Source of the DNA: Bacteroides sp. ET71
GTDB taxonomy: Bacteria; Bacteroidota; Bacteroidia; Bacteroidales; Bacteroidaceae
Direction of reading: 5' to 3'
Assembly: GCF_023336905.1 (NCBI RefSeq)
Contig: NZ_JAMBLS010000001.1
Coordinates: 238,469 to 302,468 of the forward strand
Length of the DNA: 64,000 nucleotides
Shown here: positions 2,431 through 35,714 of the stretch, piece after piece
How positions within the stretch are numbered: the first letter of the stretch is position 1
Layout: each line of letters opens with the position of its first letter
Position numbers and translations under genes: made by a program
Notes under the pieces: model-generated
What the model was told of the DNA's origin: nothing
Databases searched by the model: none
The model's input: only the letters and a program-made list of their open reading frames with translations

Positions 2431-3516
2431 TTATCCATGAGAGGCAGAGCGCCCCCGCCTCCCTCGCACCCAAATCCCGGCACAGCCAACCAAGAATCCC
2501 AGCAGAGCGAAGACCGCCATGTACTTCAGCAGGCTAGGCGATACAGGATCAACGGGAGTCGTAGCAGGCTGTATGACAGCAAACACAGGCCGTACCTTTA
2601 CCAACCTGACCTCCGCGGCCTGCACCAACCGGGCTGTACGCTCGTATTCCTCGCGAGCCTGCGCAGTCTTGATTTGCAGATTAACCAACTCCTTACGCGC
2701 CATACGGGTGCTCAAATCACGATGACTGTCCTCGAAAGCAGCTTGTGTCTCTTGAGCTTGATAATATCTCTCGCGGGCTTGGCAGTGCCACTCTTGCACA
2801 TGAGCCAAGTTCTTGCGCTCTTTTTGTGTACGATAGTCGGTAATGAGAGCCTGTATGCGACTTCTCACCGTATCGGCTACAGCAGTTGCCACGTGCGGGT
2901 CTTGCATGCGGCAAGTGATGGTGATGGTACGTTTCTCCCTGTCCACGCCGATTGTGAGGCGACTTCTGATGGCTCCCGCTATACCGGAGTCTTTGGCAGA
3001 GAGGGAGAGGATGCCGGGACATGCCTCCGTCTGCTCGCCCGTATAGTTAGTCTCTACCCGGCGAGGCTTCTCGAGAAAGGAACCGGTAAGCAGTCCGACT
3101 GCCTTGCTAAAAGCTGATTGCAGGAAGTTCCACCACGGACGCCGCTGGTGTCTGTCCATGTATTCATATAGGGAAATAGTGCTATCCGGCAGACAGAAGG
3201 ATGGCTGTACGGGCACTTCAAACAGAGGGACAAGAAAGGTGGGTGAGGCAATGAGTTGTGGGTAAAGGCTGGGTAGAAGAGCGTCTTGGATTCTGTCATT
3301 TCCCAAGGCGGCATCTATGGACAGGCCGTATGTTTCGTCAGTTAACGATATTCCGGTGCTTTCAGGCACGGTGAAAATACTGCACTCATACTCATTGGGA
3401 ATGCAGAAAGCAATGAACAAACCGACGAACAGGCCCATGCCTGTCGCCTTCAGCAGACTCCAACGATTGTCCGCCAGGCGTTTCATCCATTTCGAAAAGG
3501 TGTAATTCCTCATCAT
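2431..3516 (-). CDS. Wzz-like chain-length determinant protein, cassette 1
   Basis: This 361-residue protein has the Wzz/polysaccharide co-polymerase layout: a basic N-terminus, a first membrane helix near residues 25-40 (TGMGLFVGLFIAFCIPNEY), a long periplasmic part with a coiled-coil-prone segment (about 235-300), the motif RPVFAVIQPATTPVDP, and a second helix near the C-terminus ending in a basic tail. Family members set polymer length or organise a surface polymer at the inner membrane. Two close relatives lie at 21872-22897 and 34365-35477, each after a surface lipoprotein gene. A strong terminator separates it from the lipoprotein gene upstream. I see no obvious promoter of its own, so read-through is likely. 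The polymer it acts on is not evident, since no glycosyltransferase or flippase is nearby. Confidence 0.75.
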   Translation of the reverse strand: MMRNYTFSKWMKRLADNRWSLLKATGMGLFVGLFIAFCIPNEYECSIFTVPESTGISLTDETYGLSIDAALGNDRIQDALLPSLYPQLIASPTFLVPLFEVPVQPSFCLPDSTISLYEYMDRHQRRPWWNFLQSAFSKAVGLLTGSFLEKPRRVETNYTGEQTEACPGILSLSAKDSGIAGAIRSRLTIGVDREKRTITITCRMQDPHVATAVADTVRSRIQALITDYRTQKERKNLAHVQEWHCQARERYYQAQETQAAFEDSHRDLSTRMARKELVNLQIKTAQAREEYERTARLVQAAEVRLVKVRPVFAVIQPATTPVDPVSPSLLKYMAVFALLGFLVGCAGIWVRGRRGRSASHG

Positions 3517-6439: not shown

Positions 6440-6533
6440 ACTTTGTTTTAGTTTATTAAAAAAATACATACTTCTCTTTTGCAGAACCGGACGTATCACT
6501 TAAAGTCTGACAGCCGGTTTTTCAGACAATGAT

Positions 6534-6662
6534 TCAGAACGGGGACTCACCATCGTCAGGCGTTTGTCCGCCCTCACCTATCGGCGATCCCGCAAACCCT
6601 TTCTCAATCTGTACTTCTACTACCTCCACTTCGGGAGCCACGTAATTCAAAACTTTCTCCAT
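6534..6662 (-). CDS. Short peptide with conserved leader, copy 1 (42 aa)
   Basis: The peptide begins MEKVLNYVAPEVEVVEVQIE, continues KGFA, and ends in a tail rich in Gly, Pro, Asp and Glu (GSPIGEGGQTPDDGESPF). The first 24 residues are nearly identical to peptides at 25894-25998 and 31403-31510, while the tails differ completely. This conserved-leader, variable-tail pattern is what precursor peptides show. It lies directly downstream of a promoter and 5' leader that are also conserved in all three copies, and about 95 bases upstream of the lipoprotein start. There is no signal peptide. Function unknown; candidate exported or modified peptide, or a regulatory leader peptide. Confidence 0.75.
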   Translation of the reverse strand: MEKVLNYVAPEVEVVEVQIEKGFAGSPIGEGGQTPDDGESPF

Positions 6663-9012: not shown

Positions 9013-9038
9013 CGACGCTGATAAAAGTCTCATTTTCC

Positions 9039-11705: not shown

Positions 11706-11715
11706 AGAACCGCTT

Positions 11716-12640: not shown

Positions 12641-12647
12641 GCCCCGC

Positions 12648-12881
12648 TCATTTCTGGTTGTTCTTCAGGAACAAACCGCTCCGGATGGCATTGCCTGCGG
12701 CAACAATCATCACCAGCAGCATGGCCACCGTTCCCACCGTTTCTTTGTAATAAAGGTTTCCTCCTGCAAGGGCGGCTGCGGCCAGGAACAAAACAATGTT
12801 GACCACCAGCAGCACTTTATGCGTCTTCCGGGAGAGGTGTTTTCCGCTATAATCACGTTTCATGGGAAGCTTATTTTTCAT
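12648..12881 (-). CDS. Small membrane protein between gmk and nadD
   Basis: This 77-residue hypothetical protein has a basic N-terminus and two hydrophobic segments (about residues 22-40 and 50-66). The first ATG overlaps the last codons of gmk; a second Met at residue 7 (12863) would avoid the overlap. The position inside a tight operon supports it being real. No function can be assigned. Confidence 0.65.
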
Positions 12882-13440: not shown

Positions 13441-13447
13441 CTTTCCA

Positions 13448-14326
13448 TTACATTACGTTCAACACCTGTTCCTTGATTTGCTCCAGTTCGTCTTTCATGC
13501 GCACGACGATGCGCTGCATCTCCGCCTGGTTCGACTTGCTGCCGAGGGTATTGATTTCGCGCCCCATCTCTTGGGCGATGAAGCCCAGCTTCTTCCCCTG
13601 TCCGTGGCCTTCTTCCAAGGTTTGGATGAAATATTTCAGGTGGTTGGCCAGCCGCTGTTTTTCTTCGTTGATATCCAGCTTTTCGATGTAGTAAATCAAT
13701 TCTTGTTCCAAGCGGTTTTTGTCATAATCCACTTCCAATGTCTTCTGAAGAGCCTCCACGATGCGCTCTTTGATGCGCCCCACACGTTCTTGCTCATAAG
13801 GCTCTACTTCTGTCAGGAGGCGGGAAATGTTGGCAATCTTCTCGCGGAATTTTTTCTCCAACGCAATGCCTTCCTGGCGTCGGAACTCCACCAGCGCGTC
13901 CAAGGCACGCTGGACAGCTTCGTGCGCCAAAGCCCATTCTTCATCCGAAAGCTCCTGCACTTCGTTCTTGGCCAAGACGTCGGGCAGGCGCAAGAGGGTG
14001 CCAAACCAATCGGCTGGCTCGGGGATGCCCGTGGCCGCGGAAATTTCTTTAATCCGCTGGTAATAGGCTTGCACCAGAGCCGGGTCGATGGGAGTAGCCG
14101 GGGTGGCTCCTTCCTTTTTCTCTATCCACAGGCAGAAATCCACCTTGCCGCGTTCGAGCGTGCGCGCTATCTCCGCCCGGATTTCCATCTCCTTTTCACG
14201 ATAAAGAGGCGCGATGCGGGCGGACAAATCCAGCGCCTTACTGTTGAGTGACTTTATCTCGACATTGATTCGTTTATCGGGTCCTTCGACGGCAGCCTTG
14301 CCATAACCCGTCATGGATTGTATCAT
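13448..14326 (-). CDS. YicC-family endoribonuclease
   Basis: This 292-residue protein begins MIQSMTGYGKA, the hallmark of the YicC/YloC family, and ends with the conserved GREINTLGSKSNQAEMQ...MKDELEQIKEQVLNV. YicC-type proteins have been shown to be endoribonucleases involved in RNA turnover in E. coli and B. subtilis. It heads the minus-strand operon with gmk and nadD, with its promoter at 14347-14378. Confidence 0.9.
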   Translation of the reverse strand: MIQSMTGYGKAAVEGPDKRINVEIKSLNSKALDLSARIAPLYREKEMEIRAEIARTLERGKVDFCLWIEKKEGATPATPIDPALVQAYYQRIKEISAATGIPEPADWFGTLLRLPDVLAKNEVQELSDEEWALAHEAVQRALDALVEFRRQEGIALEKKFREKIANISRLLTEVEPYEQERVGRIKERIVEALQKTLEVDYDKNRLEQELIYYIEKLDINEEKQRLANHLKYFIQTLEEGHGQGKKLGFIAQEMGREINTLGSKSNQAEMQRIVVRMKDELEQIKEQVLNVM

Positions 14327-21871: not shown

Positions 21872-22897
21872 TTATTTTCTTTTTTTAATTTTGAAGAAAC
21901 CGATGCGGGCATATCCTACCACAACGCCCAACAGCGCGAAGGCTGCCATATATTTCATCTTCGAGGGCGAAGAGGGACGGATAGGCGTCGTGGCTGGTTC
22001 TATCACGGCAAAGACAGGACGCACACGAACGACTTGCGTTTCTGCGGCGTGTACCAGCAAGGTGGCACGGACGTACTCTTCCCTCGCAAAATTAGTCTTG
22101 ACGCGCAGTTTGACCAATTCCTTTCGGGCATTAGTCAAAGAAAGATCGCGATTGCGGTCCTCGAAGGCGGCTTGCACTTCTTGTGCCCGGTAATAGCTCT
22201 TACGGGCTTCTTCTTGCAGTCTTTTTGCGCTGGCCAGTTCCTCACGCTCTTTGCGAGTGCGGTATTCGGTGATATAGGCCTGTATGCGACGGCTGAGGCT
22301 ATCGAGCACAGTGGCGGCCACCAGCGGGTCTTGCATACGGCAAGTAAAAGTAGTGACTCTACGCTCCCTGTCCGGTATGATGGTTATCCTTTCCCGAAGG
22401 AGGTCGACGATGTCGGCGTCCTTGGCAGAGAGGACGGGGAGTCCTTCCGCGAAGGGTGAGGCGGGCGGGGTGACAAGGTCACTTACGACGCTGGCCGGAT
22501 ATTCCCACCACGGACGATGGAGATGATTCTCCAGGTAGTCGCGGAGAGTAAGTGTGCTGTCGGGCGGGCAGTCAGTGGTCTGCACGGGCAGGTCGAAGAG
22601 CGTAATGAGGAAAGACGTAGAGCTGAATATTTCAGGATAAAGACTGGGCTTCAGGGCATCGTAACGCTTTGCACGGCTCAAGCTATTGCTCAAATCAAGT
22701 CCCTCCAGACCCTCGTCGTCGGGAATAGCGATACTTTCGGCAGCGGTAGCGACGACTACTTCATATTCCTGAGGAATGCTGAGGGCGATGAACAGGCCCA
22801 GCAGCAAACCGATGCTCATAGCTTTCAGCAGCGGTTTCCGGTGTTGCCAGGCGACGAGCAGCCAGAGCAGCAGAGAGGTGTATGGAGACTTTTTCAT
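21872..22897 (-). CDS. Wzz-like chain-length determinant protein, cassette 2
   Basis: The start at 22897 (MKKSPYTSLLLWLLVAWQHR) is preferred because the 21 codons further upstream merely translate a palindromic repeat. The 341-residue protein has a membrane helix at about residues 25-45, FTCRMQDPLVAATVLDSLSRRIQAYI, a coiled-coil-prone segment (about 205-270), the motif RPVFAVIEPATTPIRPSSPSK, and a C-terminal helix. It clearly resembles the proteins at 2431-3516 and 34365-35477. About 260 bases with a terminator and three palindromes separate it from the lipoprotein gene upstream. Confidence 0.75.
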   Translation of the reverse strand: MKKSPYTSLLLWLLVAWQHRKPLLKAMSIGLLLGLFIALSIPQEYEVVVATAAESIAIPDDEGLEGLDLSNSLSRAKRYDALKPSLYPEIFSSTSFLITLFDLPVQTTDCPPDSTLTLRDYLENHLHRPWWEYPASVVSDLVTPPASPFAEGLPVLSAKDADIVDLLRERITIIPDRERRVTTFTCRMQDPLVAATVLDSLSRRIQAYITEYRTRKEREELASAKRLQEEARKSYYRAQEVQAAFEDRNRDLSLTNARKELVKLRVKTNFAREEYVRATLLVHAAETQVVRVRPVFAVIEPATTPIRPSSPSKMKYMAAFALLGVVVGYARIGFFKIKKRK

Positions 22898-22926
22898 ATA
22901 TGCAAGTACAGAGAATTTGAAATCAT

Positions 22927-22992
22927 AGGAGGTGCCGCATCCTTGCGGCACATTTACCATGCGCTATAGGAGGTGCCGCATCCTTGCAGCGC
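22927..22992. repeat. Two direct palindromic repeats before wzz-like 2
   Basis: AGGAGGTGCCGCATCCTTGC occurs at 22927 and again at 22968, 41 bases apart. The first is a perfect palindrome (stem GTGCCGCA); the second is decayed on its right arm. Confidence 0.8.
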
Positions 22993-23157: not shown

Positions 23158-25842
23158 TTATTCGTAGGAGAAATTCCATTGACCCAAAGCACCATCTTTT
23201 TCGAAGTTTTTCAACATCAGTGATGTGATATCCTGAGCATCATTTCCAACAGTGCCGCTGAGAGAAACTCCGTATTGTGCTTTATACCAATTTTTGAAGG
23301 CATTGTAGAACTTTACGGAAACCCAAGTATCTAGTGCACCAGGCCTCTTTACATAACTCATCAAGCTTTCAAGGAATTTTTCTTCAGAGCTTGTATCAAT
23401 ATCATCGGCTTTAACACATTCTTCATATGCATCTATTACAGCGTGAGCTTCGGCTGACAATGAAGGTATGGGAACTTTCGGATTTCTTACGATGTCACCC
23501 TTAGTCTGGCCATCTTGTACATAAGTACCCGAGTACCAAATGTGTTCGTCAGGATCTACATTGATAACGGAAGTATCATAGTTCATATTGTTGATATCAA
23601 CCGTCTCAACACTGGTAGTAACGTTCAACGTACCGTAGTTCGTGATGGTAGCATCTTCTGCGGGCAATACCAGGTCTTTGTCCTCGTTGCTGTAAGTGCC
23701 ATATACTTCGTCAGACTCGATGGTCAGCACGCTGCCTTCTTCAACGGTGATGTTACCCAGAGGAATGACGTCGCGGATTTCATTTTTACCGCTTCTGGAG
23801 ATGACGTTCTTCACATTGTCGTTGGCATCACCCTTCTTGTAAACCACTTTACCGTTCACCAATACGATGTCGATCAGATCCAACGGAAGCAGGTATTGAG
23901 CAGGGGTTGTCGCCGTTTCATATCTGTCACCCGGGTCTTCATCCTTGGCCTTTGCATTGAGGTCGAGTGTAACCTGTGCTTCTTCAGTACCAATGTACAG
24001 CGTATTGACGTATGCATATTCGTTTTGGTCAGCGAACTTCGTGTTATCCGTCTGAATCAGGGTGTTGATGTTGCCCATCGTTTCCTGTTCGCTGTCCTTC
24101 ACTTCGAAGGCGATTTCACCTACAGTAGCATCACCGCTCGGATAAACGTATGCGCCAAACTCAACGAATACTGTACCGTCAGTGTTGTCCAAAGCCTTGC
24201 TGTCCTGCGTGCTGATAGAAGCCAATGCACCGGCATAGATAGTACCGTTGTTGGTGATGGTGGCATCAAGCTCAATCTTCTTACCTGCAGTGGCTGTGCC
24301 TGCTGCACCAACCTTCAATACTGCGTCAGCGGCAACAACGATGTTGTCAGCCTTGTCAGCAATGAGGTTTTCGGGCCATTCGGACGTGCCGTTGATAGTC
24401 AGGCTGTTGCTGTTAGTAACCAGTTCGATCTTCACACCATTCTTCGGAGTGGCAATGTTGCCGGTGAAGCTGAGGTTGCCGCCCAGCGTGAAGGTTACTT
24501 CTTGGCCGGCTTTGTACTTGCCGCCTTCGCCGGTCAGAGCATCAATCAGGTTAACCAAGTCGTTCCACTGGGCAACTTCGGTGATGTTGTCCGTTGCCGG
24601 AGTGAAGTTCTGGGGCGTCAGGACAGCGCTCATGCTCTTAGCAGAAACGAGAGCTTTCGGAGCACCGGTCTGCTGGTTTCTCAAGATCTTGGTCATAGAC
24701 CATTCGGCGTTGTTACCGTACAGCTTCTTCAGGTTCTCGATAAGCGTTTGGCTGTCTGCCTGATCAGCGTCTACCTTGAACTCACCCAGCTTCCAAGTAC
24801 CTTGATTACCTTTTACTACGAATACTACGTCCGGGCTGTAAGCAACACCATTAAACCAGCTCAAAGCCTGTTTGATGGGGAACGAGAACACGCGAATCTG
24901 ATGCAGATTTTCGCCGCCAGCCAATGTGAAGTATTTGCTGTCGCCCATGCTGGTAGTCACAGATGTAGCCCAGTCTGAAACTATGAGGTAAGGACTGCTG
25001 TTGTCAGTCGTCAAAACGGCTGCTTTATCCATCGCTTCACGTGTAGCCTCTGTATCAATGTCTCCATACATGGTTCTCACTACATGAGGAATGAGGTGCG
25101 GATTGATCGTTGCTTTGGTAGCAATCACGCCGCCTTGCGCATTCGTGTTAACAGTCATGCTAGTGATGTACATGGCTTTCAGGTAGTCACTGGCCGTGAT
25201 GTAAGCATTGGGTGCGGGCACTACGGCATATTGGTTCAAGGGGCTTACCAAACAGAAATCCCATGCCAAGGCACCATCTGCAGTTACACCTGCGCCACTC
25301 GCGATGAAGTCCTGTGCAGACAATTGGAATCTGTTGGTATAACGGTCGCTAGCGAAGGCGCCGGTCTGTGCCGGTTCGTTAGGCGTAACAACCATTTCCT
25401 CTTGGAAACCTTTGCGCGACCAAGGATAGTAGGCAAAGTACGGACCCTGGTAAATGTTGGCCATCGTCGTCCACGTGGCACCGTTGTCCTCTGTTTCGAA
25501 GCTGGGAATGTTGTAGATCTTCTTGTCTTGATTAGCATTAGAAGAACTCCAGTCCGACTGATTCTGCGTGTTGCCATATTTCCCTTCTTCGTTCAGGTTG
25601 TAGGCAGCCAAACCAATGATATCACCATTGGTAAAGTTTCCTGAAGCACCCATACGTGTGTCGGCCTCGCCGTCTTGCACGGTAATCGTCATGCCTTTCG
25701 ATACCAGGTCGGCACCTACGGTCTCTCCGATTTCAGTGGCAACATTTTGGTTGCCTTCCATTGCGCTCTGGAAGTCGTCGTTCGTACAAGCTGTGAAGCA
25801 GGCTGCCAGTGCGCATGCGCTGAATAATACTCTTTTTTTCAT
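23158..25842 (-). CDS. Fimbrillin-like surface lipoprotein, cassette 2
   Basis: This 894-residue lipoprotein has signal peptide MKKRVLFSACALAACFTAC with lipid-attached Cys19, followed by TNDDF, which fits surface export. The N-terminal half has fimbrillin-family features (ADTRMGASGNFTNGDIIGLAAYN; GPYFAYYPWSRKG). The C-terminal half has repeated short beta segments separated by Asp/Asn/Gly turns (KIELDATITNNGTIYAG; EDATITNYGTLNVTTS), similar to the cassette 1 protein but different in sequence. No enzyme motif is seen. A terminator follows, then the wzz-like gene. Role at the surface (fimbria tip, adhesin or matrix) is inferred. Confidence 0.75.
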   Translation of the reverse strand: MKKRVLFSACALAACFTACTNDDFQSAMEGNQNVATEIGETVGADLVSKGMTITVQDGEADTRMGASGNFTNGDIIGLAAYNLNEEGKYGNTQNQSDWSSSNANQDKKIYNIPSFETEDNGATWTTMANIYQGPYFAYYPWSRKGFQEEMVVTPNEPAQTGAFASDRYTNRFQLSAQDFIASGAGVTADGALAWDFCLVSPLNQYAVVPAPNAYITASDYLKAMYITSMTVNTNAQGGVIATKATINPHLIPHVVRTMYGDIDTEATREAMDKAAVLTTDNSSPYLIVSDWATSVTTSMGDSKYFTLAGGENLHQIRVFSFPIKQALSWFNGVAYSPDVVFVVKGNQGTWKLGEFKVDADQADSQTLIENLKKLYGNNAEWSMTKILRNQQTGAPKALVSAKSMSAVLTPQNFTPATDNITEVAQWNDLVNLIDALTGEGGKYKAGQEVTFTLGGNLSFTGNIATPKNGVKIELVTNSNSLTINGTSEWPENLIADKADNIVVAADAVLKVGAAGTATAGKKIELDATITNNGTIYAGALASISTQDSKALDNTDGTVFVEFGAYVYPSGDATVGEIAFEVKDSEQETMGNINTLIQTDNTKFADQNEYAYVNTLYIGTEEAQVTLDLNAKAKDEDPGDRYETATTPAQYLLPLDLIDIVLVNGKVVYKKGDANDNVKNVISRSGKNEIRDVIPLGNITVEEGSVLTIESDEVYGTYSNEDKDLVLPAEDATITNYGTLNVTTSVETVDINNMNYDTSVINVDPDEHIWYSGTYVQDGQTKGDIVRNPKVPIPSLSAEAHAVIDAYEECVKADDIDTSSEEKFLESLMSYVKRPGALDTWVSVKFYNAFKNWYKAQYGVSLSGTVGNDAQDITSLMLKNFEKDGALGQWNFSYE

Positions 25843-25893: not shown

Positions 25894-25998
25894 TTAATAA
25901 TCTTCAGTAGGGAGTTCTGGGCTGAATGCGAAGCCTTTCTCAACCTCCACTTCTACAACCTCCACTACGGGAGCCACGTAATTCAAAACTTTCTCCAT
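25894..25998 (-). CDS. Short peptide with conserved leader, copy 2 (34 aa)
   Basis: The peptide reads MEKVLNYVAPVVEVVEVEVE then KGFA, with the tail FSPELPTEDY. It shares about 22 of the first 24 residues with the copies at 6534-6662 and 31403-31510; the tail is unrelated to theirs apart from a Ser two residues after KGFA and acidic content. It lies about 50 bases before the lipoprotein gene and follows the conserved promoter and leader. There is no signal peptide. Function unknown. Confidence 0.75.
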   Translation of the reverse strand: MEKVLNYVAPVVEVVEVEVEKGFAFSPELPTEDY

Positions 25999-26796: not shown

Positions 26797-26922
26797 ATGC
26801 GCCTGTACGAATCTCTTGGAGTCTGGTTCAACCGAAAAAGCGATTGGGCTGTGACAGGGTATTTATCGCCCTTTCTCTCTGAGTATATAAAAATATGTAT
26901 AAGAATGTGCTTCGTTTGCTGA
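26797..26922 (+). CDS. Possible 41-residue leader or precursor peptide
   Basis: An ATG at 26797 opens a 41-residue frame (MRLYESLGVWFNRKSDWAVT ... ending CIRMCFVC) within the 5' leader of the ABC transporter operon. It overlaps the transporter start by 28 bases, so it could be a coupled leader peptide or a chance frame. No homologue is recognised. Three Cys lie in the last nine residues. Confidence 0.25.
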   Translation: MRLYESLGVWFNRKSDWAVTGYLSPFLSEYIKICIRMCFVC

Positions 26923-28532
26923 CCAAAGGCCAACGCCGACAGGCTTATCGGGTGTTATTGGCCGTTGTGGTGCGCGCTTTGCTGGATTTTGCAGGAGTGG
27001 CGGCCTTATTCCCTGTGCTGCTGATGTTGCTGAAGCCCGGTAGCGGACGGTGGGAAATGTTGTTGTTGTGCGGCGGTGTACTGTTGTTCGTGGTGGCAAA
27101 GAATGTGTTGGTATGCTGCTTGGCACGTATACAGAGCCGCTTCCAGTTGGAGGTATACAAGGATGTCAGCTTGAGGATGTTTGGCAATTACTATCGCCGC
27201 GGTCTGTTGTTCCTGAAGGGAAAAGGCAGCACGCGCTTGTCTCACGAGGTCAATTATACGGGCTATGCTTTTTGTCAAGGTATTTTAGCTTCCTTATTCC
27301 GACTGTGCGGCGAGGGCGTATTGACAGCCTTGATGCTGGCAGCCTTGTTTATATGGGAGCCAACGGCAGGCATACTGCTTTGTGCAATCTTCGTATCCTT
27401 GTCAATAGGTTATGTCCGTTTGGTGCGGAAGCGGCTGCAGCAGTATGGCACCGAAGAGTTTGAAGCACGGCGCAGACAGGCGCGGACGGTGATGGAAACT
27501 TTTCGTGGATATGCCGAAATAGAGATAGCCCATTCGTTCGATAGCTCGCTGACAAATTTTGTGCAGGGGACGGAAATCATTGCTACGAACCGGCTGCGTA
27601 CGGAGATTTGGCAATTGTTACCTTTGTTTCTGTCCGAGACGGCAATTGTGTTGGGCATGGCATTGTTGGTTGTGGCCGGAAGAGAAGATTTGGGACTATC
27701 GGGCGGTGTGTTCGCCATCGCGGCATTCCGCTTGGTGCCAGCCGTGCGAGCCATGCTGAATGCCTATGCGGTGATACAAAACTCATCGCAAACACTAGCT
27801 GTCTTGACTGATGGTTTAGACGAACGGGAAAGTGAAACGACAAAAGAATCGGTCAATTTTACTTTTGAAAAAGGCATCGAACTGAAAAATTTGGGCTATG
27901 CCTTTCCCGATGGACACCTACTGTTCAGCGGATTGAACTGGCACATCAATCGAGGAGAACGTGTGGGCATCCGGGGAGCAAGCGGATCGGGTAAATCGAC
28001 ATTATTCAACCTGCTGCTCGGTTTTCTGAAACCCACGGAAGGCGAGATTCGCATTGACGGACAGTTGCTGACACCGGATAACCGCATGGGCTGGCACCAG
28101 AGAGTGGGCTACGTTCCGCAAGAGATATTCGTCATGGACGGTACTTTGCTAGAGAACATCGCGTTGGGCCAGTCTGTACCAGATCGGCAAAAAGCTCAGA
28201 AAGTGTTGGAACAAGTACAACTGGGCGAATGGTTGGCCGAGCTACCGGAAGGATTGAACACTCTGTTGGGCGAGTCGGGCAGCAGGATGTCAGGCGGACA
28301 AAAGCAGCGTTTGGGCATCGCCCGCGCTTTGTATAAGGAAGCCGATGTCTTGTTCTTCGACGAGGCAACGTCGGCTCTCGACAACAGGACAGAACAAGAA
28401 ATAAACCGAGCCTTACAGCAACTGTCGGCATCCTATCAGGAATTGACTATGATTATCATCGCACACCGGGAAAGTTCACTGGCCTTATGTGACCGGATTT
28501 TTGATTTAGAAAAACAAACAGAAATAGTATAA
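26895..28532 (+). CDS. ABC transporter with fused membrane and ATPase domains
   Basis: This 545-residue half-transporter has a membrane domain in residues about 15-310 and an ATPase domain from about 330, with Walker A GASGSGKST near residue 360, the Q-loop region VGYVPQEIF, signature MSGGQKQR and Walker B VLFFDEATSALD. The layout is that of exporters of lipids, drugs or peptides (MsbA/McjD-like). There is no N-terminal C39 peptidase, so any leader removal must be done elsewhere, possibly by the signal-peptidase-like protein two genes downstream. It is first in an operon with HprK-like, peptidase-like and nucleotidyltransferase genes (gap of 7 bases to the next). Confidence 0.88.
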   Translation: MYKNVLRLLTKGQRRQAYRVLLAVVVRALLDFAGVAALFPVLLMLLKPGSGRWEMLLLCGGVLLFVVAKNVLVCCLARIQSRFQLEVYKDVSLRMFGNYYRRGLLFLKGKGSTRLSHEVNYTGYAFCQGILASLFRLCGEGVLTALMLAALFIWEPTAGILLCAIFVSLSIGYVRLVRKRLQQYGTEEFEARRRQARTVMETFRGYAEIEIAHSFDSSLTNFVQGTEIIATNRLRTEIWQLLPLFLSETAIVLGMALLVVAGREDLGLSGGVFAIAAFRLVPAVRAMLNAYAVIQNSSQTLAVLTDGLDERESETTKESVNFTFEKGIELKNLGYAFPDGHLLFSGLNWHINRGERVGIRGASGSGKSTLFNLLLGFLKPTEGEIRIDGQLLTPDNRMGWHQRVGYVPQEIFVMDGTLLENIALGQSVPDRQKAQKVLEQVQLGEWLAELPEGLNTLLGESGSRMSGGQKQRLGIARALYKEADVLFFDEATSALDNRTEQEINRALQQLSASYQELTMIIIAHRESSLALCDRIFDLEKQTEIV

Positions 28533-28539
28533 CATCATA

Positions 28540-29388
28540 ATGGAACAAGATTATCTAATAGCGGGACATCGCATCCGCATACAAGGCAAAGACCTTCTGG
28601 AAGCCTTGGCCCCCCTACCTGCATTTATCCCCTTCCGAACATCGGATGGCGGAACCCCCGTAGGCGAATTTATCGTAAGCAGCGAAGATGGCCCCACAAT
28701 GACCAACAGGTTGTATTGTGTCGAAGTGTATGGGACATTTTGGCGTTTCGGACGCTATGCCGACGGTTATGCTTTTGAAATCGAATCACCTGCGGGAGAA
28801 CTTTTGCGACTGTGGACCATAGACAATCGCATCTACCTGTCGGGGGTATTACAAGAACGTTTGCTGCATTTCGCCTGCTGGATGGGGTTTGGCTTGTTAG
28901 TAGCAGAAAGACAAACGATGTCAGTACATACCAGTGCCATTGTCTACCGGGACAATGCTGTGTTGTTTTTGGGCGAGAGCGGAACGGGCAAGAGCACACA
29001 TACACGCCTATGGCGCGAAAACATAGAGGGTGCTTTCTTGCTGAACGACGACAGCCCATTTGTACGCATCGTCAATGGGAAGCCTTACGTATATGGCAGC
29101 CCTTGGAGCGGCAAGACACCCTGCTACCGCAATGAATGTTACCCCATAGCGGCTTGTGTACGCCTCTCACAAGCGCCTTACAACAAAATTGAGCGCTTGC
29201 CCATACTTCAGGCGTACGCAGCCTTACATCCTTCATGCCCTCCAGCTTTTGCCTACGATGAATCATTGTATGACGTGATTAGCCAGATACTCGACAATAT
29301 GTTGTCACAGGTGCCCGTCTTTCACCTGAACTGCCTGCCGAATGCCGAGGCAGCCCGCTTGTCTTGCAAAACAATATTCGGCGTATGA
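28540..29388 (+). CDS. HPr-kinase-like P-loop protein
   Basis: This 282-residue protein has a P-loop LGESGTGKSTHTRLWRENI (Walker A near residues 145-152), an acidic motif LLNDDSPFVR, and YGSPWSGKTP, matching the HPr kinase/PEP-carboxykinase-like proteins found beside PqqD-like and nucleotidyltransferase genes in peptide clusters of other bacteria. It is not the classical HprK, which has a different N-terminal domain and acts on the phosphotransferase system. It probably phosphorylates a peptide or protein; the substrate is unknown. Its stop overlaps the next gene's ATG (ATGA). Confidence 0.75.
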   Translation: MEQDYLIAGHRIRIQGKDLLEALAPLPAFIPFRTSDGGTPVGEFIVSSEDGPTMTNRLYCVEVYGTFWRFGRYADGYAFEIESPAGELLRLWTIDNRIYLSGVLQERLLHFACWMGFGLLVAERQTMSVHTSAIVYRDNAVLFLGESGTGKSTHTRLWRENIEGAFLLNDDSPFVRIVNGKPYVYGSPWSGKTPCYRNECYPIAACVRLSQAPYNKIERLPILQAYAALHPSCPPAFAYDESLYDVISQILDNMLSQVPVFHLNCLPNAEAARLSCKTIFGV

Positions 29389-29840
29389 CAATGAAACGTT
29401 TGGTACTAAATAATGCCTTCCTGGGTGAAGCAGCCGAAGCTCTGCGCGCCGGACGTCAGGTAACAGTCCGCATTGACGGAGGAAGCATGTATCCTTTCAT
29501 ACGGGGAGGGCGTGACGTAGTCGTGTTACTGCCTTGCCCACAGAAGGAAGTCTTACAAGATGGATGCTGTTACTTCTTTTCCTGGAAAGGACAATATATG
29601 GTGCACCGTTTTGTGGGAACAGACGGTGCCCATTGCCTGTTTATGGGGGATGGCAACATCGTCCGGCAAGAACGGGTAGAACGTAGCGAAGTCGTAGGCA
29701 TACTCCGCTACATCGTTCGTCCTGGTGGCCGGACCATAGATTGCCTCTCCCCCTCTTGGTTGCGGCGTGGAAGAGACTGGTACCGATGGCGTTTCTTACG
29801 ACGTTGGCTGTTGCCGTTATGCCGGATACTAAAGATATGA
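29385..29840 (+). CDS. S24/S26 signal-peptidase-like protein, Ser/His type, no membrane anchor
   Basis: The start at 29385 overlaps the upstream stop; 151 residues. RIDGGSMYPFIRGG carries the likely nucleophile Ser34, MVHRFVG carries His74, and LFMGDGN follows. This order (GGSM...P, VHR, GDGN) resembles the archaeal/ER signal peptidases that use Ser-His rather than the bacterial Ser-Lys pair. No N-terminal membrane helix is present, only a basic hydrophobic C-terminus (WRFLRRWLLPLCRILKI) that might touch the membrane. Such small proteins often sit next to HprK-like and nucleotidyltransferase genes in Bacteroidetes. A role in trimming a peptide is an inference. Confidence 0.7.
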   Translation: MTMKRLVLNNAFLGEAAEALRAGRQVTVRIDGGSMYPFIRGGRDVVVLLPCPQKEVLQDGCCYFFSWKGQYMVHRFVGTDGAHCLFMGDGNIVRQERVERSEVVGILRYIVRPGGRTIDCLSPSWLRRGRDWYRWRFLRRWLLPLCRILKI

Positions 29841-29875
29841 AAATAAGAAGATAGAAATCCAAATAAAAAACTGAC

Positions 29876-30991
29876 ATGAACTATCAACAACAACTGCTTG
29901 CACTGCTTCGCGCGGGCTTGGGTAACGGGAAGCTTGACACCACTCTGTTTGACAGTTCTACTGACTGGACAACGATCTACCGCATGGCTCGCCAGCAAAC
30001 CGTGGCCGGTGTTGTGTTCGACGGTCTAAAACATCTGCCGACAACCAGTATCCTACCCCGGAACTTGTATCTGGCATGGTGCAACGAAGTATTGAGACTG
30101 GAAACAAACAACCGGAAACTTGACTCGGAAATAGCCAATCTTTATATACTCTTTCGTATGCACGGACTGGAACCCTTGCTCATGAAAGGGCAAGCCGTGG
30201 CACAAAATTATCCCCAACCCCTGCACCGGCAATGTGGAGACATTGACCTCTACACCGGCCCGCAAGGTTTCCAGTGGGGCAACAAACTGCTTCGGAGAGA
30301 AGCCACCAGCGAAAAAGAAGAACGCTACAAGCATACATCCATGTGTTGGCACGACGTTTTGGTAGAAAACCACCGCGTCATGGCCAATCTGAGCACGCCG
30401 TGGAAGGATATGAAATTGCAGAAAGACATCAACAAACTGTCTGACCCGCTGACCCCGAAAACAGTTCTGAACATAGGAGAAACGGAAGTTACAGTACTGC
30501 CACCGTCCTTCAACACATCCTACCTGTTGATTCATGCCCTTACACACTTTTTGAATGAAGGCATCGGTCTGCGCCATCTCTGCGACTGGGCTTGCCACGT
30601 GGCCAAACACTGCTCTCCTGAAGAAAAAGAAGAAGCTGCACGCCTGTTGCGTCGCTATGGTCTACAACGTCCAGCCCGCATTTTCGGCGCATTGGCCGTA
30701 CAACAGTTGGGCATCCCTTTTGAAAGTCTCCCCATTCCCTTCACCGCCAAAGATCAGAAAAACGCCCGCTTCCTGCTAGCTGAAATCTGGGAAGGAGGCA
30801 ACTTCGGTCGCTATGACGAACGCACGGGGAAGCGACCGGCCGGCCGCTGGTGTGGCAAATGGTACACCTTCACCCGCGCACTTCGCCGCTGTTTACGCGT
30901 CTGGCGGCTGGCCCCCTCCGAAGCTGCTTGCTATCCCCTATCCTTGGCTTGGCACAGTGGGCTGGTACTGCTCCGACCACGACGCCGATGA
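29876..30991 (+). CDS. Nucleotidyltransferase-family protein (NTP_transf_5-like)
   Basis: This 371-residue protein has LEPLLMKGQAVAQNYP followed by RQCGDIDLYT, the GDxD metal-binding motif (Asp122, Asp124) of the uncharacterised nucleotidyltransferase family 5. The family is repeatedly encoded with HprK-like kinases, PqqD-like proteins and exporters, including lasso-peptide and exosortase-linked loci. The modified molecule is unknown. It is the last gene of the 26.9-31.0 kb operon, 35 bases after the peptidase-like gene. Confidence 0.75.
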   Translation: MNYQQQLLALLRAGLGNGKLDTTLFDSSTDWTTIYRMARQQTVAGVVFDGLKHLPTTSILPRNLYLAWCNEVLRLETNNRKLDSEIANLYILFRMHGLEPLLMKGQAVAQNYPQPLHRQCGDIDLYTGPQGFQWGNKLLRREATSEKEERYKHTSMCWHDVLVENHRVMANLSTPWKDMKLQKDINKLSDPLTPKTVLNIGETEVTVLPPSFNTSYLLIHALTHFLNEGIGLRHLCDWACHVAKHCSPEEKEEAARLLRRYGLQRPARIFGALAVQQLGIPFESLPIPFTAKDQKNARFLLAEIWEGGNFGRYDERTGKRPAGRWCGKWYTFTRALRRCLRVWRLAPSEAACYPLSLAWHSGLVLLRPRRR

Positions 30992-31080
30992 ACACAAACA
31001 TCACCACAAGCTTCCGCAGCCTACCGCCTGACGTCGTGGTACCCTCATTCCGTTTGCCCTCTTCCCCGCTTCCCTATTAC

Positions 31081-31166
31081 AAGAGCCGTGTTTCGTCCGC
31101 GCACGAAGCACGGCTCTTTCGTACCCAAAGTGCACTTCTTCCACACACCAAGCATAGCTCACTTTT
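31081..31166. repeat. Degenerate period-22 tandem array
   Basis: Units start at about 31081, 31103, 31125 and 31147. Unit ACGAAGCACGGCTCTTTCGT closely resembles ACGAAGCACCCCCCGTACGG in the array at 38386. The 410-base gap between the nucleotidyltransferase and the third short peptide otherwise holds only the cassette promoter. Confidence 0.5.
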
Positions 31167-31264
31167 ACCTCCTCCACAAACTGTCTGACGTTATCCCACA
31201 GAACAGCTTTCTTTTAGAGTTTTTTCCTTTTCAAAGAAAAAAACAAAAAAAAGTGTATTTTCTC

Positions 31265-31315
31265 TTTGTCATCCGAATAAAATTAATCATATTTGCACCG
31301 TATTTCGTACGGAGC
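31265..31315 (+). promoter_or_regulatory. Conserved cassette promoter with 5' hairpin, copy 3
   Basis: TTTG (31265-31268), 19 bases, CATATTTG (31288-31295), then GCACCGTA-TTTCG-TACGGAGC (31295-31315). The leader from here to the ATG at 31403 is nearly the same as in copies 1 and 2. Confidence 0.8.
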
Positions 31316-31402
31316 CAAGAAAGAAAGGAATAATAGCAAAGGCAAAAACACGGAAAAAATAGCATAAATAACATAGTATTAATCAATTAAAATTAAACAA
31401 CA

Positions 31403-31510
31403 ATGGAGAAAGTTTTGAATTATGTGGCTCCCGAAGTGGAGATTGTAGAAGTGGAGGTCGAAAAAGGCTTCGCAGTAAGCGACCTGGAAGAAGGCGATAA
31501 CTGGGGATAG
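31403..31510 (+). CDS. Short peptide with conserved leader, copy 3 (35 aa)
   Basis: The peptide reads MEKVLNYVAPEVEIVEVEVE then KGFA, with the tail VSDLEEGDNWG. The first 24 residues match the other two copies almost exactly, including at the DNA level for the first eight codons (ATGGAGAAAGTTTTGAATTA). The tail is again different and acidic. It lies 57 bases before the lipoprotein gene and 411 bases after the nucleotidyltransferase gene. Candidate substrate of the neighbouring exporter/HprK-like/peptidase-like/PqqD-like set. Confidence 0.75.
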   Translation: MEKVLNYVAPEVEIVEVEVEKGFAVSDLEEGDNWG

Positions 31511-31567
31511 TAGCCATCCTGTTAATACTGAGATTTAACTAAATGTAAAACCAATTATTATCAAACA

Positions 31568-34174
31568 ATGAAAAGAATCTTATTTTGCGCGGGTCTCTTA
31601 GCTTTCATGGCAAGCTGTACCCAAGATGAGTTTGAACAACAAACGATAAGCAACGAGGCACAAGCCCCGGGCATCTCGTTTGTCGGCGTAGAAGCCGAAG
31701 CACCCTCTACAAGAGGTGAAGTGTATTGGGATGAAAGCACACTGAAGTACAAATGGTATGCAGAACAAGACCAAGTTGACATTTATGCTGTCGGTGCAAT
31801 CAAAGGTGGTACTCTGGGAACTGGTGTCAGCGGCACTAGGGTGGATGACTGGAGCAAATGGGTTCAAGCATCCCCTTCAACCGGTGAAGCAACTCCTGCC
31901 CAATACAAGGCTACGCGTTCTATGAACGAACCTTGGTTTACGGGCGTAAGCAACGATGATATTTTATACTTCGCGGCAGATAAAGATGCTGATGATCCTG
32001 CAGAGTTCTTGGCTGTTTATCCGGAAACTTCAGTGCTTGATTTCAGCCAAGAGAATCAAGGAAAACTTATCATCAAGAGTCTGCCTGACATAACAACTCA
32101 GAATCAAACCAGTGGCACTGAAGGTAATTCTATTGCAGAAAAAACCCTTATGCTGGCTTATGGTACTGGCTACCCCAACCCTGATGCTACTTATGAATCC
32201 GTTGGTGAAAGAGTGAATCTTTCTTTCAAACGCCCAATGGGTTACATCGCATGGAAGACCGCGAACCTGGATAGCGACCCCGTGCTGAGTGCTGTGAATG
32301 AAAATTTGAAAAGTATTTTCGGCAATTTGCAGACTATTAAAGTGGAAGCTAAAGGTTATGACCAGAATGGCAATGGAGATTATACAGACGAAGGCGATAT
32401 CGCTCCTTCTATTCTGAACTATGGTAACGCACAGATGCGTATCAACATGCCTAATCCCGACAACAGCGAATTCGACTGGAAAGACGTAGATTTCTTGTCT
32501 TCTGATGGAACCAAAGTCGTTGCTTCTACCAATAGCAACACTCAGATTGATGGTGAGTGGAGCACAGACGTAACAGGTGCTGCAAACGAAGTTACATTAA
32601 GTCTTAACCAGGCATGGTCAGACAACAATTCTGCCTTCATGATCGTTAGCCCGGTTTTCCGCACTTTGAACGGTTATAGCAGAGAGAAAGACATCAATGA
32701 AGAACTGGTTGCTACTTACACTTTCGAAAACATCACCTTAAAGGCTGACAAGGAGTCAGGAATAGGTATTATATCGCCTTTCGGTGGGTTCTCTACTGCC
32801 GGCGACTGGAGCAACACAAAGGGGTACAACCGTTACACACTGGATATCGCCAAATATCCTTATCTGGTTACTAACAAGCCCAACGATCGCGCTCTGATTA
32901 TCAATGATGCCACTTTTGCAGAAGATATCATGCGTGGAAGCAATGTAATATGGAACGGAGAAAGCATCAATCCTACAGAGTTTACTACCATCATCTCTAA
33001 AACTCCCATCTATGACGAGGCTAACAATGTTGACCAATACAGCTACCTGAAGCAGTTCACGAATCTGAAAAAGCTCGTCTTGATCAACGATACGAAGATC
33101 CCCGCCAACGCCTTCAATCGTAGCACGTTCAGCCAGTTGACAGAAATCAACTTCCCCGCTGTTACTGAAATTGATGCAACAGCCTTCACTGGCTTCGGCA
33201 AAGAGGGTAACAATGGTCTGACCAATGTTTATCTGAAGAGCTATCCGTTCTTGGACCGCGACATTGCCTTCTCCTTCTTGGATGACGACAAGCTGTTGAA
33301 ACTCGACATGAGCAAAGCCACAGTGATGAACGTCGGCTTCCCGTCTCAGGGCTTCACACTGGAAGGCTACAGCAATCTGAATGAAGTAACTGTAGGCACT
33401 GTAGAAGTAGGTCCTAACTCCTTCGATGGATGTATTAACCTGGCCACTATCAAGGGTGATGGTAACTTCATACTGAATACAAACGGCTTCGCAGCCTTCC
33501 GTGGCACAGCGCTGACCACTATCAACTTGGTACAGACCGCAGCAATTCCGGCTTACGCATTCCAGAACTGCGATGATCTGGTATCTGTAACAAGCGATGG
33601 CACAACTCTGACCGCTGTTAACGAGTATGCATTCCAAGCCTGCAAAAAGTTGACTTCTTCAGCTACAAACAGCATCAAACTCGACAACGTACAAACCATC
33701 GGTGACTACGCTTTCTATGGCTGCGAAGAATGGACTGATGCAAAATTGGAGAACACCACGAGCATCGGCAAGTGCGCCTTCAAGGATTGCTCGAAACTGT
33801 TCGGTGCTTGGTATGAAAACAGAAAAGTGATTAAAGTAGGTGCAGAAACCGTAGGTTCTGGTGCATTCCACATGTGTACTGCTATTGAACACATCCAGTT
33901 CCTGAATGCAACAGAAGTAGAACGCGGTGTGCTGGGCGGTGCATCCAAGCTGATTCAAATTCAATTTGACCAGCCGTTCACCTGCAACGTTGATGCCGAC
34001 GGATCTACTCTCCTTCCTGGTTCTCAGTGGTCCACGACATTCGGTAGCAATACGAAAAACGTCACCTTGTTCGTCAACCCGGCTCAAACAGGTCGCACGT
34101 CTACTCAGTTGACCATCGGCGATACTGACAATACGGTTATCACATTTAAGTCTATCTTGAATATAGAGAACTAA
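31568..34174 (+). CDS. Surface lipoprotein with fimbrillin-like N-terminus and BspA-type leucine-rich repeats, cassette 3
   Basis: This 868-residue lipoprotein has signal MKRILFCAGLLAFMASC with Cys17, followed by TQDEFE for surface export. The N-terminal part is fimbrillin-like (PSTRGEVYWDES...YKWYAEQDQVDIYAVG; LSFKRPMGYIAWKT). From about residue 490 it has BspA-type leucine-rich repeats with IPANAF, IDATAF, VGPNSF, IPAYAF, VNEYAF and IGDYAF spaced 20-30 residues apart. These repeats mediate binding in BspA proteins. The C-terminal repeats set it apart from the beta-rich C-termini of the cassette 1 and 2 proteins, as if the surface-exposed half had been swapped. A terminator follows at 34244. 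Confidence 0.8.
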   Translation: MKRILFCAGLLAFMASCTQDEFEQQTISNEAQAPGISFVGVEAEAPSTRGEVYWDESTLKYKWYAEQDQVDIYAVGAIKGGTLGTGVSGTRVDDWSKWVQASPSTGEATPAQYKATRSMNEPWFTGVSNDDILYFAADKDADDPAEFLAVYPETSVLDFSQENQGKLIIKSLPDITTQNQTSGTEGNSIAEKTLMLAYGTGYPNPDATYESVGERVNLSFKRPMGYIAWKTANLDSDPVLSAVNENLKSIFGNLQTIKVEAKGYDQNGNGDYTDEGDIAPSILNYGNAQMRINMPNPDNSEFDWKDVDFLSSDGTKVVASTNSNTQIDGEWSTDVTGAANEVTLSLNQAWSDNNSAFMIVSPVFRTLNGYSREKDINEELVATYTFENITLKADKESGIGIISPFGGFSTAGDWSNTKGYNRYTLDIAKYPYLVTNKPNDRALIINDATFAEDIMRGSNVIWNGESINPTEFTTIISKTPIYDEANNVDQYSYLKQFTNLKKLVLINDTKIPANAFNRSTFSQLTEINFPAVTEIDATAFTGFGKEGNNGLTNVYLKSYPFLDRDIAFSFLDDDKLLKLDMSKATVMNVGFPSQGFTLEGYSNLNEVTVGTVEVGPNSFDGCINLATIKGDGNFILNTNGFAAFRGTALTTINLVQTAAIPAYAFQNCDDLVSVTSDGTTLTAVNEYAFQACKKLTSSATNSIKLDNVQTIGDYAFYGCEEWTDAKLENTTSIGKCAFKDCSKLFGAWYENRKVIKVGAETVGSGAFHMCTAIEHIQFLNATEVERGVLGGASKLIQIQFDQPFTCNVDADGSTLLPGSQWSTTFGSNTKNVTLFVNPAQTGRTSTQLTIGDTDNTVITFKSILNIEN

Positions 34175-34243
34175 ACAACGCAGAACGAGAGCCCAACAAC
34201 TCTCGGCAAAAACGGGCAATCACACCGATTCCCAATACAACGA

Positions 34244-34272
34244 AAGGTGGGGACACGCTCCCCACCTTTTTT
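34244..34272 (+). terminator. Terminator between lipoprotein 3 and wzz-like 3
   Basis: AAGGTGGGG pairs with CCCCACCTT, followed by TTTTTTC. It is a strong terminator in the same relative place as at 3548 and 23079. Confidence 0.85.
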
Positions 34273-34288
34273 CTTGAATACTCTGCAC

Positions 34289-34352
34289 AGGAGGTGAGGC
34301 ATCCCTGCCTCACACTAACAAACCAACCATCGCAAGGATGCGATGACTCCTA
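34289..34352. repeat. Two palindromic repeats before wzz-like 3
   Basis: AGGAG plus GTGAGGCATCCCTGCCTCAC (34289-34313), then CATCGCAAGGATGCGATG plus ACTCCT (34329-34352) in the inverse orientation. Both stems are perfect though their sequences differ. Confidence 0.8.
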
Positions 34353-34364
34353 CATACCCAAGAC

Positions 34365-35477
34365 ATGACTGATAAAGTAACCCAAAGACATCGCCTCACC
34401 CGCCACCTGCACCTCGCCTGGCGTCACCGTCGCACCCTGCTCCGGGCCGCAAGCATCGGACTTATCTTCGGCCTCCTCGTCGCCCTCAGCATCCCCAAGG
34501 AATATGTCGTCCGTATCCTTCTCTCCCCCGAAAGCATCAGCGACGGCAGCAGTACATCCGGTAATTGGGCAGCAGACATTCTGGGCGGAGGAGAAGGAAA
34601 AGAGCGCGATGCTATTACTCCCGATTTCTACCCTTACATCGTCAGTTCTACCGGTTTCCTCGTTACTTTGTTCGATATTCCTTTGCAAACCATCGACTGT
34701 CCACCCGACAGTACCTTGACTCTCTATGAATATATGGATAAACACCAAAGCCGTCCTTGGTGGAGTTTCTTCCAAACCGCCTTCGGCAAGCTTCTCGCCT
34801 TGATTACTGGCTCTTTCCTCGACAAGCCCAGAGAGCAACAAACCAACTATGTCACCAACAGCAATACTGACACGACGTTTACCATCCTCACTCTCTCGGC
34901 CAAAGAAACAGGCATTGCCGCAGCCATCAATGGCCGCATCAACATTGAGCCTGATGTAAAGAGTCATACAGTAACCATCAACTGCCGTATGCAAGATCCG
35001 CTCGCCGCAGCCATCGTGGCCGACAGTCTCAGCCGCCGCATACAAGCTTACATCACCAACTACCGCACACAAAAAAGGGAAAAAGAATTAGCCATCGCAC
35101 TCCGACAGCAGCAAAAAGCCAAGCAGAAGTATTACGAAGCGCAGGAGGCACAGGCTGACTTCGAGGACCGAAACCGTGACCTGGCCTACAGAAATGCGCA
35201 GAAAGAACAAATCAAACTACGCATACTGACCGAACAAGCCTACCAGGAATATGTCCGTACGAGTTTGCAAGCGCATGCCGCCCGCGTAAAGGTCATCAAG
35301 GTGCGTCCGGTCTTTGCCGTCATACAGCCAGCCACAGCACCTGTCCTCCCTTCTTCGCCATCAAAGTTAAAATACATGGCAGCCTTCGCCCTACTAGGCA
35401 TTGCGACAGGATACATCCGCCTTTGGCTGCCTGGTTGGAAAAAATTCTCAAGCAATAACACCGCAACGCGTCAGTGA
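34365..35477 (+). CDS. Wzz-like chain-length determinant protein, cassette 3
   Basis: This 370-residue protein has a membrane helix near residues 26-48 (LLRAASIGLIFGLLVALSIPKEY), a periplasmic domain with LFDIPLQTIDCPPDSTLTLYEYMDKH, a coiled-coil-prone segment (about 240-305), RPVFAVIQPATAPVLPSSPSK and a C-terminal helix with a basic tail. It is closely similar in layout to the wzz-like proteins of cassettes 1 and 2. The last 30 bases overlap the convergent PqqD-like gene. Confidence 0.75.
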   Translation: MTDKVTQRHRLTRHLHLAWRHRRTLLRAASIGLIFGLLVALSIPKEYVVRILLSPESISDGSSTSGNWAADILGGGEGKERDAITPDFYPYIVSSTGFLVTLFDIPLQTIDCPPDSTLTLYEYMDKHQSRPWWSFFQTAFGKLLALITGSFLDKPREQQTNYVTNSNTDTTFTILTLSAKETGIAAAINGRINIEPDVKSHTVTINCRMQDPLAAAIVADSLSRRIQAYITNYRTQKREKELAIALRQQQKAKQKYYEAQEAQADFEDRNRDLAYRNAQKEQIKLRILTEQAYQEYVRTSLQAHAARVKVIKVRPVFAVIQPATAPVLPSSPSKLKYMAAFALLGIATGYIRLWLPGWKKFSSNNTATRQ

Positions 35478-35714
35478 TTCTATCCAGCGTCCGGCGTCGG
35501 TCTGAGCCTGCTCTTTCGAGATGCCGAAGCGACCAACCAAGACTTCGGCTGCGTCATCTGCTGTAAAATCTTTACCCTGCAAAGCTTCCCACAACAGCAG
35601 GGCTGTGGTATTCAACGAAATGACCTTCGTCATGTCCGAATGATCTTTACCTTGATTAACAACTAGATTCTCGCCGGCAATCTGCCGCACCTTATAATTC
35701 TCTTTTATACGCAT
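35448..35714 (-). CDS. PqqD-family peptide-binding protein
   Basis: This 88-residue protein matches the PqqD fold used as a RiPP recognition element: a short beta N-terminus (YKVRQIAGENLVVNQG), the motif VISLNTTALLLWEALQGKDF (like LNETGxxIWxLLDG), then DDAAEVLVGRFGISKEQAQTDAGRWIESLTRCGVI. Such proteins bind the leader of a precursor peptide and present it to a processing enzyme. It is the nearest PqqD-like gene to the HprK-like/nucleotidyltransferase operon (4.5 kb away, opposite strand) and faces cassette 3. It appears to have its own promoter. Confidence 0.8.
   Translation of the reverse strand: MRIKENYKVRQIAGENLVVNQGKDHSDMTKVISLNTTALLLWEALQGKDFTADDAAEVLVGRFGISKEQAQTDAGRWIESLTRCGVIA

Follow-up and report, generated by a model that had tools for sequence, protein, structure and literature searches.

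A probable variant of the linear polyphosphorylated peptide pathway with dispersed precursor genes in Bacteroides sp. ET71

The stretch of DNA considered here, 64,000 nucleotides of Bacteroides sp. ET71 (contig NZ_JAMBLS010000001.1, positions 238,469 to 302,468; hereafter the window), carries genes for small MEK precursor peptides and a set of enzyme genes near one of them. We think it likely that together they form a ribosomally synthesized and post-translationally modified peptide (RiPP) system of the linear polyphosphorylated peptide (LPP) type in the Bacteroidota, in which one operon and one RiPP recognition element (RRE) serve all four dispersed MEK genes of the genome. LPPs are RiPPs described by Popov et al. 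(2026) from the lpp cluster of Paenibacillus alginolyticus, whose core genes are A, B, S, K, N and D (PMC13381572). The basis for such a system in the source genome is its gene set, conservation, the folds of the proteins, the co-occurrence of enzymes and peptides, and the geometry of the leader motif. Binding, the sites of phosphorylation and cleavage, the nucleotidyltransferase reaction and export are predicted by homology.

In the proposed pathway the small PqqD-family RRE would bind the YxxPxV motif in each MEK leader, and the HprK-like kinase would phosphorylate the Ser conserved in the AxS motif, which in peptide 3 is S26. Leader removal, probably just before AxS, would fall to the Ser/His signal-peptidase-like enzyme and yield a phosphopeptide that is short and very acidic. 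The NTP_transf_5 protein may place a further group on the phosphate, a hexose or a nucleotide as PsmN is reported to do, and the ABC exporter would carry the product out, the one operon and RRE acting for all four dispersed genes. In the LPP system, expression in B. subtilis and cleavage assays showed that LppK polyphosphorylates core Ser3 and that leader cleavage by LppS is RRE-dependent (PMC13381572). PsmN has been linked to hexoses on phosphoserine in pseudomycoidin (PMC9266682).

Enzymes, recognition protein and precursor peptides

Four genes lie head to tail on the forward strand from 26895 to 30991, with gaps of 7, -4 and 35 bp: an ABC exporter of the MsbA/PglK type (LppD-like; 26895..28532), an HprK-like kinase (LppK-like; 28540..29388), a predicted Ser/His signal-peptidase-like (S26-like) leader peptidase resembling LppS (29385..29840, with a possible alternative TTG start at 29364) and an NTP_transf_5 nucleotidyltransferase (LppN/PsmN-like; 29876..30991). 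This four-gene unit is a tight operon. The third MEK gene (31403..31510, forward strand) starts 411 bp beyond it and has its own conserved upstream region, and the 88-aa PqqD-family RRE (LppB-like; 35448..35714, reverse strand) is encoded separately, past peptide cassette 3, where on the reverse strand it follows a gene for an NhaA-type antiporter. An earlier, sequence-only reading of the window had listed these genes together with peptide 3, and all of them are located where it placed them. Its picture of one operon holds for the four tightly packed enzyme genes; the RRE gene, separate and on the other strand, and peptide 3, at its distance of 411 bp, fall outside it.

Because alignments with relatives contain invariant or nearly invariant motif columns, the enzyme and PqqD genes are not chance open reading frames (ORFs). 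No Pfam family scored over its cut-off for the kinase, and its AlphaFold model (predicted local distance difference test, pLDDT, 95.9) matches both PEPCK (E 7.7e-8) and HPr kinase (E 5.8e-5); across 33 sequences H130, the P-loop S147-T153 and N169, D170 and D171 are invariant. The S26-like protein matches PF00717 (E 2.5e-4) and the archaeal-type signal peptidase model TIGR02228 (E 1.5e-4), both under the cut-offs, has weak profile matches to SPase I (4nv4, E 0.001) and SEC11C (7p2q, E 0.0011), and retains S34 and H74 in all 25 sequences compared. The nucleotidyltransferase belongs to PF14907 (E 1.2e-40), with K104, G105, G121, D122, D124, E164 and H166 invariant in 18 sequences, including a GDxD-type motif; a profile search found no solved relative at E <= 1. 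The exporter contains PF00005 (E 2.9e-34), is a neighbour of the kinase in many relatives, and has PglK as its top NCBIfam match (E 5.6e-73), far under the PglK cut-off.

The RRE matches PF05402 (E 2.1e-11). Its identity with the RREs from 16 close-kinase loci is 44-62%, and with those from 18 distant loci 24-36%. Among PDB folds its predicted model (pLDDT 84.6) best matches lasso B1 proteins solved together with a leader (Foldseek E 2.9e-3, probability 1.00), with no Foldseek match at E <= 0.001, and the best profile and fold matches are both to actinobacterial lasso B1 RREs (TfuB1 6jx3, TbiB1 5v1u/5v1v). The partners of such RREs are a B2 peptidase of the cysteine type and a cyclase; neither a B2 peptidase nor a nearby cyclase was seen in the MEK system. 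N35 and D73 of the window RRE are nearly invariant in 35 sequences and, judged by spacing and neighbouring residues rather than by direct alignment, appear to fit N33 and D70 of LppB, the two residues that grip the YxxP motif by its kinked Pro and its Tyr (PMC13381572).

The window contains three MEK peptides, of 42 aa (peptide 1, 6534..6662, reverse strand), 34 aa (peptide 2, 25894..25998, reverse strand) and 35 aa (peptide 3, identified by ORF call and by peptide alignment A1). The sequence-only reading counted these three; the genome holds four, as found both by pattern and by profile, the fourth lying about 14 kb before the window (contig C1, 224432-224527). Peptide 3, the one MEK member scanned, has no Pfam or NCBIfam family at E <= 1. 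Among 15 aligned MEK peptides Tyr, Pro and Gly are invariant and Ser nearly so, and the block from Tyr to Ser is 20 residues long and gapless in all 15. The LPP motif YxxPxVLxHQxIxFETxxS spans 19 residues and ends in the phosphorylated Ser (PMC13381572); YxxPx[VL] is present in all 15 MEK peptides, followed at almost the LPP distance by the Ser (Thr in one), and the middle LxHQxIxFET is not shared. The leader is under constraint at the protein level, with a ratio of nonsynonymous to synonymous differences (pN/pS) of 0.28 for pairs taken between loci, including the window against the fourth copy of the same genome. In 45 MEK cores, drawn by a pattern that requires Ser or Thr at the site and drops peptides with neither, Asp and Glu make up 22% of residues and Lys and Arg 1.2%, 44 of the 45 have a net negative charge, and Ala stands first in 38, mostly as A-x-S.

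Distribution of the kinase and the peptides among relatives

Co-occurrence was examined in 251 Bacteroidaceae genomes, with cut-offs (kinase E <= 1e-80, peptide E <= 1e-8) chosen after viewing gaps in the ranked lists. Eighteen close kinases, including that of the source genome, reach E <= 5.4e-81, and after a gap the remainder are at 2.5e-54 or weaker. A strong MEK-like peptide is present in 17 of the 18 close-kinase genomes versus 3 of the 233 others (Fisher p 2e-22, a value that, like the other Fisher p-values given here, overstates independence because the genomes are related); the 17/18 arises partly by construction, the peptide profile A1 having been built from 11 of the 18 genomes. With the profile-supplying genomes removed, the figures are 6/7 versus 3/233 (p 2e-9). 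In the genus of the source genome, the two close-kinase genomes (the source genome, G000, and G149) are the two with strong peptides among the 17 listed. The association supports the proposal made from the sequence alone, in which these gene products would act on the peptides, the PqqD-like protein binding the MEK leaders and a single operon sufficing for every one of them.

The wider order gave a similar result. The peptide was found at E <= 1e-5 in 9 of 295 genomes, and of the eight besides the source genome six have a kinase at E <= 1.7e-79 (two of the six from the same genus), one has a match at 1e-20 and one has none. Among 16 controls, the first same-order genomes listed without the peptide, there was a single kinase match, at 2.9e-24. 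At E <= 1.7e-79 this amounts to 6/8 versus 0/16 (p 2e-4), for a kinase profile that mixes close and distant kinases.

The sequence-only reading had further named frequent genomes with the one and not the other as grounds against it. Within the close kinase subfamily such genomes are rare; at a looser level kinases without the peptide do occur, as a kinase match at E <= 1e-5 is present in 206 of the 251 genomes and a MEK profile match at E <= 0.01 in only 43 (strong, E <= 1e-8, in 20), and other kinase subfamilies therefore would have other precursors or tasks. Some genomes are rich in peptides, with 11 profile matches at E <= 0.01 in G149, 10 in G221 and 7 in G208.

The loci themselves were also compared. 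Of 17 close-kinase neighbourhoods outside the window, the fetched stretch includes a MEK-like peptide in 11 (L047, L048, L050, L051, L054, L055, L056, L057, L059, L061 and L063) and not in six (L049, L052, L053, L058, L060 and L062); five of those six genomes hold strong peptides elsewhere, the exception being G138. In L056, L057, L059, L061 and L063 the genes follow one another on one strand in the order peptide, lipoprotein, PqqD, NTP_transf_5, ABC exporter, HprK-like kinase and S26-like peptidase, without the lipoprotein in L056 and with the S26 gene of L057 past the contig end; L055 is arranged in another order. In L230, from another family, a YxxP...GFAAS peptide, HprK, S26, PqqD, NTP_transf_5 and ABC genes form one minus-strand run. 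Across the best 80 of 593 named kinase loci, a sample that has no bearing on other phyla and in which some loci come from the same genomes as the G-numbered set, the kinase is accompanied by S26 in at least 73, ABC in 54, PqqD in 52 and NTP_transf_5 in 16, these and the peptide counts being lower bounds since contig ends cut many of the loci.

Two further loci drew attention. In Phocaeicola sartorii JCM 17136 (L150) the HprK and ABC genes that stand beside a MEK-type peptide are each broken up into overlapping reading frames, a sign of frame breaks or of errors in the draft assembly. G207 encodes the same 50-aa MEK-like peptide twice, the copies being separated by about 6.4 kb (L133:866 and L133:7287).

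Comparison with known systems and other explanations

The sequence-only reading compared the locus with HPr-rel systems, usually of no known product; the LPP family is a closer comparison and replaces it (PMC13381572). The gene set is the six-gene LPP core A, B, S, K, N and D, with a discrete RRE, an HprK-like kinase, a Ser/His archaeal-type signal peptidase, a nucleotidyltransferase and an MsbA-like exporter, and the two systems share a YxxPxV leader with a conserved Ser at a fixed distance, the lpp core having A-Q-S where MEK cores have mostly A-x-S. LPPs and paeninodins have been stated to be restricted to the Bacillota, and the available text of that description contains no word beginning Bacteroid- or Prevotella (PMC13381572). 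Likewise, no word beginning HPr or nucleotidyltransferase occurs in the available main text of a survey of Bacteroidales RiPPs (PMC10352776), and we found no description of an LPP-like system in Bacteroidota in the open PMC literature, preprints being outside its scope. New relative to the known LPPs are the Bacteroidota host rather than Bacillota, the very acidic cores of 10-37 aa, and one operon for four dispersed peptide genes, with several such precursor genes per genome and about half of them followed by a large lipoprotein gene; the window RRE also stands apart from the four-gene operon. The match to LPP is thus close but incomplete. Because the later part of the leader motif departs from that of LPP and the RRE is no more than a candidate member of the LPP clade, we file the system as a Bacteroidota-type variant that would work like LPP.

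Several observations weigh against this assignment. The second half of the MEK leader reads EVxVEKGF where LPP has HQxIxFET, and from Tyr to Ser the MEK block has one residue more. For the third catalytic acid of LppS the S26-like protein offers no clear match: D89 and E96 are both invariant in the 25 sequences, and either may be the counterpart of LppS D93. The RRE profile scores best against actinobacterial TfuB1, and LppB (9x8z) is not among its PDB matches at E <= 10, although the PDB copy may not hold 9x8z; because LppB is missing there, kinship of the RRE with the LPP clade is unproven. Thr occupies the Ser site in 4 of 45 cores, and LppK did not accept Thr; deleting lppN made no visible difference in the expression experiments published for LPP (both PMC13381572). 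There are also genomes that break the pattern: G138 has a close kinase and no MEK peptide at E <= 0.01, G207 (72% complete) and G394 have peptides and no kinase found, G284 has peptides and a weak kinase match, and G144 and G240 have peptides and a distant-subfamily kinase only (single-sequence E 4.6e-36 and 1.0e-34; profile E 6.7e-87 and 4.5e-82). In 63 of the best 80 of 593 kinase loci the fetched stretch contains no MEK-like peptide, and the 17 with one were counted by an iterated profile at E < 0.01, several matches being weak or of another type. Finally, the case is known from sequences and predicted structures, and the modification, the product and its role are read from these.

The MEK ORFs might instead be short upstream ORFs with a regulatory part, controlling the lipoprotein genes by attenuation or translational coupling, the enzymes acting elsewhere, for example on polysaccharide. 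A large lipoprotein gene does follow within 250 bp of 23 of 42 scored MEK peptides, the four copies in the source genome share their upstream region, and Wzz-like genes come after them. However, 12 of the 42 have no such ORF found within that distance (a scoring whose pattern misses the peptide of the L230 operon, in which 2 of the 42 lie at contig ends and the ORF at L125 classed as other looks lipoprotein-like), the leader is conserved as protein and keeps a fixed Tyr-to-Ser spacing, peptides and enzymes co-occur tightly, and no marked RNA structure was detected in the copy of the shared region upstream of peptide 3 (z -0.77). The constraint on the leader, the L230 run and the peptides without a following lipoprotein make regulation by an upstream ORF unlikely, and we give it little credence.

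Slightly less probable still is that the RRE, kinase, peptidase and exporter mature the MEK peptides while the conserved Ser is not phosphorylated, the main modification being direct nucleotidylation or glycosylation, or the kinase-like protein having another role. The kinase fold is about equally similar to PEPCK and HPr kinase, the nucleotidyltransferase has neither a solved relative nor, in the available LPP description, a proven reaction, and the Thr-bearing cores point the same way. Against it, the Ser is nearly invariant in the 15 aligned peptides, and the HprK-like kinases of LPP and paeninodin both phosphorylate a precursor Ser (PMC9266682, PMC13381572).

A lasso cluster of the paeninodin kind, whose RRE, kinase, nucleotidyltransferase and exporter would yield a threaded macrolactam, has the least chance of being correct and was rejected because no cyclase lies nearby and there is no B2: the discrete RRE, Ser-directed HprK-like kinase, NTP_transf-type protein and ABC exporter do recur in the paeninodin and pseudomycoidin clusters (PadeK, PsmK/PsmN; PMC9266682) and the RRE fold best matches lasso B1 proteins, but PF13471, the B2 transglutaminase-type leader peptidase, has 0 matches in the source genome (99.58% complete), PF00733 (Asn_synthase) matches there only within one 556-aa frame on another contig, C16, the peptidase belongs to the Ser/His signal-peptidase type, YxxP stands in each of the 15 aligned leaders in place of the WxxP of paeninodin, and the conserved MEK Ser is internal, beside the leader, rather than at the C terminus.

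If the LPP-type assignment is right, the pathway would be widespread in Bacteroidales, given the kinase homologues and the S26-like gene so often beside them among the best 80 loci, and cultured species such as Phocaeicola faecalis would carry it. These would be hosts in which to test the unsolved nucleotidyltransferase step and the biological role of LPP-like peptides; the final product and role of LPP were left unsolved in the 2026 description (PMC13381572). The assignment would also provide a function for a group of tiny peptides without a family in Pfam or NCBIfam, as judged from the one member scanned.

Peptide cassettes and related gene sets

All four MEK genes in the source genome are followed by a large lipoprotein gene and then by a gene for a Wzz-like protein. 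On the reverse strand these are 3623..6499 and 2431..3516 in cassette 1, and 23158..25842 and 21872..22960 in cassette 2; on the forward strand, cassette 3 has 31568..34174, with a lipobox-like N terminus and LRR_5 repeats (PF13306, E 4.1e-24), and 34365..35477, a membrane protein with a weak Wzz match (E 0.014, under the cut-off). The lipoproteins of cassettes 1 and 2 are without a Pfam family, the latter at E <= 1. In a scan of nine of the large lipoproteins, three had any match at E <= 0.01 and two had one over the cut-off, LRR_5 in L054 and Pectate_lyase_5 in L057.

The upstream region of peptide 3 (31271..31402, forward strand) is conserved at all four peptide genes. A 141-bp stretch that takes in 132 bp upstream of peptide 2 and the first 9 bases of the gene is present nowhere else in the genome than at these four genes, with identities of 100, 97, 97 and 94%, and the cassettes remain near-identical from the promoter area through most leader codons, divergence beginning around the conserved Ser. 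Cassettes 2 and 4 have lipoproteins with 38% identity along most of the sequence, matches between the other pairs are short or weak, and the four Wzz-like proteins share 49-66% identity. The fourth Wzz-like protein is encoded at L014:978-2057, which makes a family with one member for each cassette; a search of L013 and of the relative loci L047-L083 (36 real stretches) gave no homologue.

It is conceivable, if doubtful at present, that one RiPP maturation operon serves dispersed, diversifying surface cassettes, each combining a near-identical control region and leader with a different acidic phosphopeptide core and often a different large lipoprotein, with a phospho- (perhaps glyco-) peptide displayed on or working with the lipoprotein and decorating or labelling the cell surface, rather than acting as a secreted antibiotic. 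The frequent lipoprotein pairing and a fusion of GT2 and NTP_transf_5 domains in a second gene set of this genome hint at such a surface role. The pairing of peptide and lipoprotein extends beyond the family of the window: in L231 (G431; 4290-7217 and 7390-14085) MEK-like peptides are followed by very large lipoproteins of 950 and 2231 aa.

Other related sets occur in the source genome. A third PqqD-domain ORF (L003; contig C7, 33873-34034) adjoins an ORF that, read by eye, resembles a membrane transporter, and no other module genes were noticed in this 3-kb locus. The second set (L013; contig C1, 162000-181500) comprises PqqD, ABC and S26 genes, the GT2-NTP_transf_5 fusion and a different YxxP peptide. 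A second HprK-like gene (contig C1, 195457-196317; L233:13931-14812) is separated from the fusion by about 22 kb and has neighbours that look like parts of a polysaccharide locus.

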